Shown here piece by piece: positions 9,681-43,522 of a stretch of DNA of 47,115 nucleotides (position 1 is its first letter; each line of letters starts with the position of its first letter). The notes under the pieces are model-generated. The model saw only the letters and a list, made by a program, of their open reading frames with translations. It was not told the origin of the DNA and searched no databases. Origin of the DNA: a virus. The stretch is from positions 1 through 47,115 of the IMG/VR virus record IMGVR_UViG_3300020473_000047. One strand, given 5' to 3'. The translations under genes and the position numbers were made by a program.

Positions 9681-9832
9681 AACTGAGATGAGGAATTCCT
9701 CATCTATTACTACTGCCGCTACCGAGACTAGGCAGAATAACAATCCGTCTCTCATCCTACCTGTAGATTTAAGGGTACTACAGGAAAATAAGTTTCGCTG
9801 ACTCCCTATCAGCCCTACTTAAAGTTGGACTA
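9681..9832 (+). promoter_or_regulatory. structured psbA 5' leader
   Basis: About 150 untranslated bases precede psbA. They contain a perfect 20-base palindrome centred on GGAATTCC (9686-9705), right at the expected transcript start, and a second stem-loop of CCTGTAG (9760-9766) with CTACAGG (9778-9784). No reading frame was seen. The leader may affect mRNA stability or light-dependent translation as in host psbA. That role is inference. Confidence 0.5.
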
Positions 9833-42946: not shown

Positions 42947-42980
42947 AAAATATCCCGATAAAAAATCGGGGTATTTTTTT
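42947..42980 (+). terminator. rho-independent terminator
   Basis: A 13-bp stem AAAATATCCCGAT / ATCGGGGTATTTT (one wobble), a 5-base A loop and a T-run. It closes the nrdC operon. A degenerate relative lies at 27113-27177. Confidence 0.85.
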
Positions 42981-43061
42981 GTCTGTAAGGTTTTTTAAGA
43001 ATTGTATCAGAGAATACACATTTACTTGCCTATATACTATAACTGTGTTAGTATTAACACA

Positions 43062-43107
43062 ATCGTTCATCCCGAAAGGGACGCAAGTAAGCCGACTCGG
43101 AACGGAT
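43062..43107 (+). promoter_or_regulatory. glutamine-II riboswitch (Downstream-peptide RNA)
   Basis: The sequence has the conserved core of the Downstream-peptide RNA, a glutamine riboswitch known from marine cyanobacteria and their phages: ATCGTTCAtccc, a GAAA-capped TCCC/GGGA hairpin (70-73 with 78-81 of 43000), GACGCAAGTAAGCCGACT and GGAACGG. P1 is CGTTC (43064-43068) with GAACG (43100-43104). It directly precedes a short peptide gene, the arrangement that named the motif. A second copy of ATCGTTCATCCC (43106-43117) abuts the start codon and could pair with the same GAACG strand. Recognition is from memory of the consensus. Confidence 0.8.
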
Positions 43108-43117
43108 CGTTCATCCC

Positions 43118-43285
43118 ATGTTTCACTTACAATCTATTCTTATAGCTGCTTCTCTAACTTGTTCTGAAGCATATGAACTTGTCGATAAGATGAGGGAGTA
43201 TAAAGTTGATGAGGAGATACGAACTGAAATGATTCAGATCGTTAAGGAAGAGAGTAGGGAATGTTGGGACGCAAAAGCCGACTAA
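43118..43285 (+). CDS. riboswitch-controlled small peptide
   Basis: A 55-residue protein (MFHLQSILIAASLTCSEAYE...), helical, with a mildly hydrophobic N-terminus and a charged C-terminal helix. It starts right after the glutamine-type riboswitch, so glutamine, a signal of nitrogen status, probably controls it. Downstream peptides of this RNA are known in cyanobacteria but poorly understood. Some are thought to act on glutamine synthetase-related regulation. Whether this one does is inference. The only ribosome-site-like sequence (CGGAACGGA) lies inside the aptamer. Confidence 0.72.
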   Translation: MFHLQSILIAASLTCSEAYELVDKMREYKVDEEIRTEMIQIVKEESRECWDAKAD

Positions 43286-43294
43286 AGGAACGGG
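43266..43294 (+). promoter_or_regulatory. second, degenerate Downstream-peptide-like element
   Basis: GGGACGCAA and AAGCCGACT plus GGAACGG repeat the 3' half of the upstream aptamer, spanning the peptide's stop codon. A CGTT at 43240-43243 could supply P1, but no strand for the TCCC/GGGA hairpin is seen. Possibly a decayed second riboswitch before the next small gene. Confidence 0.5.
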
Positions 43295-43324
43295 TTAAAA
43301 TCCAACTACTTTAGGAGTAATCCA

Positions 43325-43468
43325 ATGGCAAAAGTCACATACAGAGGTGTCGAATATGATACCGAAGAGTACAATAAAAAAGTACTCGCTGAAGAAGCTC
43401 AAAAAAGAAATCATGATTTAATGTATCGTGGTATTAGACATGAACGTAAGTTCGCATCTAAGAGCTAG
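43325..43468 (+). CDS. DUF4278-like small protein
   Basis: A 47-residue basic protein. The paired motifs VTYRGVEYDTEEY and MYRGIRHERKF match the cyanobacterial DUF4278 pattern (a short YRG repeat). It has a good ribosome site (TTAGGAGTAA) and follows the degenerate riboswitch-like element, so it may respond to nitrogen signals with the gene before. Function unknown. A strong terminator follows. Confidence 0.7.
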   Translation: MAKVTYRGVEYDTEEYNKKVLAEEAQKRNHDLMYRGIRHERKFASKS

Positions 43469-43493
43469 ATTCACACTTGCATATACGTTTAAA

Positions 43494-43522
43494 GAAGACC
43501 TATTGACAGGTCTTCTTTTTTT
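43494..43522 (+). terminator. rho-independent terminator
   Basis: A perfect 8-bp stem GAAGACCT/AGGTCTTC with a 6-base loop, followed by seven T. It ends the riboswitch-peptide unit. Confidence 0.93.

Follow-up and report, generated by a model that had tools for sequence, protein, structure and literature searches.

A probable glutamine-I-type riboswitch folded around a complete 55-aa gene in T4-like cyanophages

A leader in an mRNA of a T4-like cyanophage probably forms one composite aptamer of the glutamine-I type, which would be folded around a complete 55-aa gene and gated by glutamine. Comparison of related loci showed how the strands pair, that the nested ORF is coding and has its stop codon within the core of the aptamer, and that a hairpin lies at the downstream Shine-Dalgarno sequence. 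The window, i.e. the whole stretch of 47,115 nucleotides that was analysed (IMG/VR record IMGVR_UViG_3300020473_000047), is T4-like cyanophage DNA with glutaredoxin-like, ThyX-like and PhoH-like neighbouring genes, and P-SSM2 has the same gene order; all features described below lie on the + strand. Two intrinsic terminators, that of the upstream gene (42947-42977) as the 5' border and a second one (43491-43518) as the 3' border, bound a self-contained unit of a putative promoter, the riboswitch element, the 55-aa ORF and a 47-aa DUF4278 gene. The putative promoter (43026-43054; -35 TTGCCT at 43026-43031, a 17-nt spacer and -10 TAGTAT at 43049-43054) was under the scan threshold in the window and was placed by position from relatives, in which TTGACT-N17-TATAAT stands immediately 5' of the first aptamer strand, S1.

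In the proposed fold, P1 would be formed by S1 (CGUUC, 43064-43068) as the 5' strand and S4 (GAACG, 43288-43292, 3' of the 55-aa ORF) as the 3' strand. P2 is the hairpin UCCC-GAAA-GGGA (43070-43081; strands 43070-43073 and 43078-43081), which is without an ORF in the window and holds one, ORF1, in 51 relatives. It is followed by the J2/3 core CGCAAGUA (43082-43089), the AGUA strand of a presumed loop-E motif according to the Rfam alignment, and by the 5' strand of a long-range P3 (AGCCGACU, 43090-43097), whose partner (again AGCCGACU, 43276-43283) was assigned from covariation across loci. The P3 arm would end in an inner hairpin, with S2 (GAACG, 43100-43104) as the 5' strand and S3 (CGUUC, 43108-43112) as the 3' strand, and in a second P2-like hairpin, P2', the loop of which is the 55-aa gene (ORF2, PHROG 504, 43118-43285). 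The strands of P2' are 43114-43118 (UCCC and the A of the start codon) and 43265-43269 (UGGGA, pair probability 0.95); the latter lies within ORF2, as do the inner junction CGCAAA (43270-43275) and the 3' strand of P3. The stop codon UAA (43283-43285) falls in P3/J3-1, and the J3/1 core AAAG (43284-43287; GAAG in many relatives) leads to S4.

The first-pass annotation had drawn attention to a repeat, and the 12-mer ATCGTTCATCCC at 43062-43073 does recur exactly at 43106-43117, abutting the ATG at 43118, with S3 as the first half of the copy; the positions that it gave for GAACG and for the TCCC and GGGA strands of P2 were likewise correct. A chance repeat was rejected by the conservation of the copy across related loci. 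CGTTC(A) or CGTTG(A) directly 3' of GAACGG/CAACGG was parsed in 228 of them, and in 2.24 Mb of fetched loci the S2-S3 block was found upstream of 272 of the 282 matching 3' cores, most of the remaining 10 being near a contig end. The glutamine-riboswitch type assigned to the aptamer stood, with RF01739 (glutamine-I) scoring 35.1 bits, a marginal match against the gathering cut-off of 35, which covers the 5' half only in the S1:S2 register. The class did not: glutamine-II (Downstream-peptide, RF01704), also a marine-cyanobacterial glutamine aptamer near short ORFs, was rejected by the covariance-model check that had itself been proposed, at 24.4 bits versus a cut-off of 33, no RF01704 pseudoknot was identified, and a three-way junction model fits better. 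The core in the window consists of CGCAAGUA and AAAG, and that of RF01739 of CGSAAGUA and GAAG beside P1. The annotated interval, 43062-43117, contains the aptamer part, but most of the element is outside it, including a matching 3' half at 43266-43292, where a second, similar core GGGACGCAAAAGCCGACUAAAGGAACGG begins at 43266 at the 3' end of the 55-aa ORF. Judged by sequence, the element falls into the glutamine-I class (RF01739), of which it would be a new form.

IMG/VR was scanned for sequence patterns, in one run with both the copy and the last P1 strand left free, and 155 distinct 3' cores were obtained, with GAACG in 155/155 and CGUUCA no more than 260 nt upstream in 153. The distance from CGUUCA to the core was bimodal (16-31 nt in 24 loci and 142-230 nt in 129), the short-distance loci having a plain hairpin in place of the ORF of the long-distance ones. 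In the 228 parsed cyanophage loci, for which the permitted letters of S1-S4 were fixed, S1 was complementary to S4 and S2 to S3 in 228/228, respectively. The parser also demanded at least three P2 pairs, so that P2 pairs 1-3 carry no independent weight. The variable S2:S3 pair was G-C in 153 loci and C-G in 75 with zero exceptions, counts that are inflated by block transfer through recombination because S2 and S3 are only 3 nt apart; recombination and shared descent lower the number of independent changes, and a tree-based test found only 4 independent S2/S3 switches on supported branches and no significance, the supported pairs being too few. A scan in which S2 began with a base other than G and S3 could end in any base gave 111 loci, all parsed ones having CAACG with CGUUG, and a scan for GAACG with a last S3 base other than C gave zero loci. 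In S1/S4, C-G was replaced by U-A (CGUUU/AAACG) in 7 loci, which represent one group of similar loci.

These counts bear on an arrangement of two independent tandem glutamine aptamers, one closed by S1:S2 and the other, whose P2 loop would hold the ORF, by S3:S4. Tandem glnA aptamers have been described (PMC2864571), with 157 doublets in PMC9481103, all four strands of the window are mutually complementary, and in several ORF-less relatives Rfam aligns each half separately. The tandem pairing was nevertheless complete in just 153/228 loci, against 228/228 for both S1:S4 and S2:S3, by which an independent P1 for each aptamer was rejected; in the other 75 loci the joint change of S2 and S3 costs both tandem P1 helices a pair and leaves S2:S3 and S1:S4 intact, and S1 and S4 covary in the 7 loci given above. 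Furthermore, AGUA is supplied by the first half only and GAAG/AAAG by the second only, so that neither half alone has the whole Rfam core, which the two make complete together. With P3 pairing the first half to the second, two independent aptamers are unlikely.

The composite fold was further supported by P3 and P2'. In relatives P3 links both halves as AGUCG:CGACU or AGUCA:UGACU, with pairing beyond that in all 2000 shuffles, and within the class of the window AGCCGACU pairs with AGCCGACU, AGCCGACA with UGCCGACU, and others likewise. The three-way junction P1/P2/P3 was recognised through covariation in relatives, the P3 of the window itself having standard pairs at 6/8 positions and two A.C mismatches. 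Across the ORF, the first four pairs of P2' were standard in 201, 201, 199 and 197 of the 201 loci with ORF2, respectively, the fourth pair being CG in 146, UA in 36, UG in 11 and AU in 4. The element was read as one composite aptamer because S1:S4, S2:S3 and P2' across the ORF covary. For ORF-less members (loci L021 and L057) the best Rfam alignment was a single composite aptamer, with scores of 43.6 and 40.3 bits, in which the inner part was treated as 38-46 nt inserted into P3. Among 17 ORF-less members, 97.4% of the cells of the composite structure were paired, versus 32-61% when the structure was slid, and covariation exceeded that in all 500 shuffles. R1, a covariance model trained on ORF-less members, scored 94.8 bits on S-PM2, which was outside the training set; on the window it gave no match spanning the ORF, with 44 bits for the 5' half and a weak 14.8 bits (E 0.09) for the 3' half.

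The first-pass annotation leads to a model of a single aptamer at 43062-43108, in which the copy would be an expression platform that acts by strand exchange on the 55-aa ORF only. The pairing of GAACG (43100-43104) with the copy, which is part of that reading, is conserved (the 153 and 75 loci above) and predicted, with a mean pair probability of 0.89 in the unliganded fold, and the RF01739 match covers only the 43062-43108 part. The likeliest partner of the CGTTC of the aptamer is however not this GAACG but S4; rather than forming a simple expression platform for the adjacent ATG, the copy supplies with its CGUUC the 3' strand of the inner hairpin, and its UCCC, which had been read as an alternative partner of the P2 strand GGGA, pairs with GGGA 150 nt downstream across the ORF. 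The second core at 43266-43292, the covariation of P2' and P3 across the ORF and the stop codon in the core are left unexplained by a single aptamer at 43062-43108, which is very improbable.

The nested ORF2 was shown by its substitution pattern to be coding and under purifying selection, with a median dN/dS of 0.22-0.29 in the four largest length groups and out-of-frame values of 0.74 and 2.28 for the same region. Its ATG stands after or within the 5' strand of P2' in 200/201 loci, and its stop codon in P3/J3-1 of the aptamer core in 192/201. The 228 loci comprise 18 with no ORF, 159 with ORF2 only (the type of the window), 42 with both ORFs and 9 with ORF1 only. ORF1, in the outer P2 loop, belongs to a family other than that of ORF2 (mostly PHROG 6471, 63-76 aa); in many cases its AUG takes part in the stem, and it ends with a stop codon either in P2 or in the AAGUAA of the core. 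It is carried by the isolates P-HM1, P-SSM3 and S-TIM5 (loci L287, L289 and L290, respectively) and by L001-L004 and others. Neither ORF is present in the isolates S-PM2, P-TIM68 and S-CREM1, and in the record of S-CREM1 a 99-nt glnA riboswitch is annotated at the composite. The nested proteins of PHROG 6471, 504 and 13397 look unrelated and often have a hydrophobic N-terminus and two cysteines, traits that might be those of small exported or membrane proteins.

The gene 3' of the element (ATG at 43325, 43325-43468, 47 aa) matched PF14105 (DUF4278) at 25.5 bits, versus a cut-off of 25.3, and PHROG 5049 at 5e-25. Through PF14105 it is of the kind looked for downstream of RF01739, i.e. a nitrogen-metabolism or DUF4278 gene, and the association of glutamine-I riboswitches with DUF4278 genes has been reported (PMC6316151). 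A strand CUAAAG/CUGAAG, which ends in J3/1 and includes the nested stop codon, is complementary to CUUUAG/CUUCAG at the Shine-Dalgarno sequence of this gene. In the window the resulting hairpin (43282-43314; CUAAAG at 43282-43287 and CUUUAG at 43309-43314; pair probability 0.93) competes with the core and covers the Shine-Dalgarno AGGAG (43313-43317) as read from the sequence. Among the relatives UAAAG was accompanied by U in 60 loci and by C in 0, and UGAAG by U in 59 and by C in 59 (Fisher p 4e-14). On this comparative evidence the covarying expression platform is the CUAAAG/CUUUAG hairpin over the Shine-Dalgarno sequence, and the regulated output is likely the DUF4278 gene. In the predicted unliganded fold of the window, P2, S2:S3, P2' and the Shine-Dalgarno hairpin had pair probabilities of 0.89-0.95 and P1 one of 0.02, the composite being 3.6-7.6 kcal/mol above the optimum; the folding energy of the whole leader was ordinary versus shuffles (z -0.99), so that thermodynamics alone is no proof of structure. 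From the covariation of CUAAAG/CUUUAG and from this fold, with the hairpin formed and P1 open, we infer a translational ON switch for the DUF4278 gene, in agreement with reported glutamine riboswitches before such genes (PMC6316151, PMC6698751).

The same fold can be read as a real structure that is no longer glutamine-dependent and whose main role is to hold back translation of the nested ORF and of DUF4278 or to set its timing, e.g. by ribosome-driven refolding. P2, S2:S3, P2' and the Shine-Dalgarno hairpin are already present in it, J3/1 is AAAG in the window, and a ribosome halted at 43283-43285 would cover the anti-Shine-Dalgarno strand. Such a loss of sensing is quite improbable, given that hundreds of divergent loci retain the glutamine-I core nucleotides, with either GAAG or AAAG, and have an outer P1 that is fully complementary in 228/228.

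In the glutamine-gated composite, glutamine would close P1, P3 and the core, and the closed core would remove CUAAAG from the Shine-Dalgarno sequence and thereby activate the DUF4278 gene. Since a ribosome that translates the nested ORF would melt P2' and P3 and halt on the core, ORF translation would compete with the sensing of glutamine; passage of the ribosome might either turn DUF4278 on through coupling or merely block sensing. A broader reading, with about an even chance of being right, is that of a gene-bearing riboswitch: the phages would carry small protein genes as cassettes that can be exchanged in either of two hairpin loops of a single ligand-binding aptamer, each gene starting at a helix and most of them ending within or next to the core, and ribosome traffic and metabolite sensing would gate each other and thereby the downstream gene. 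Within the gene-bearing reading, a second glutamine site in rearranged form might be present at the inner junction, sharing P3 with the outer one.

A protein gene in a loop of a structured RNA is known from group I and II introns, which carry ORFs in peripheral loops and, unlike the composite, are not ligand-sensing regulatory leaders. With glutamine-I (glnA, RF01739) the composite shares the P1/P2/P3 three-way junction, the core CGSAAGUA...RAAGGAACG and the DUF4278 gene downstream; it differs in P1 partners about 230 nt apart and in a long-range P3 that ends in the inner hairpin and the gene-bearing P2'. Tandem glutamine riboswitches (PMC2864571, PMC9481103) likewise have two CGUUC...GAACG modules per leader, whereas by covariation the strands of the composite are interleaved as S1:S4/S2:S3, with an ORF in the loop. 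The metE B12 riboswitch of M. tuberculosis has a translated short ORF, uMetE2, in an aptamer extension (PMC11260477), and there translation and folding are presumably exclusive, as proposed for the composite. uMetE2 (+123 to +170 nt) is poorly conserved; by contrast, the nested cyanophage ORFs, up to two per element, encode 49-76 aa under purifying selection, with the AUG beside or in a stem and the stop codon usually in the core. A literature search found no nested gene in a glutamine riboswitch, an earlier description in Ames and Breaker 2011 or Klaehn 2018 being possible.

If the composite is real, an entire conserved gene can interrupt a metabolite aptamer that folds around it, contrary to the common view in which a compact leader precedes its gene. 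The insert defeats standard covariance models, and similar cases may therefore have been overlooked or catalogued as single or tandem aptamers. Infection of marine cyanobacteria by these phages would be tied to the nitrogen signal of the host, and the element would offer a system for direct testing of translation versus ligand-induced folding.

In bacterial genomes the exact tandem pattern was found on only 5 contigs, mostly of unlikely hosts, which may be phage contamination. A contig with the tandem pattern, L181 (QCLS01000003.1, 189106 bases), is labelled Prochlorococcus AG-418-C09 but has roughly the length of a cyanomyovirus genome, and the single-cell assembly may thus include a phage. 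Four loci (L182, L200, L208 and L217) have a common stretch (GGAACGACTGAAGGAAACACTTTTATAAATAAAAGTGTACGTTCATCCCATCAG...) directly 3' of S4, which runs into a zinc-finger or HNH-like frame and holds another CGTTCATCCC; by its sequence it is perhaps a homing element targeting the riboswitch. Elsewhere in the window, a PhotoRC-II RNA (RF01717), a known cyanophage cis-regulatory element, was matched at 9700-9797 on the + strand with 44.9 bits.
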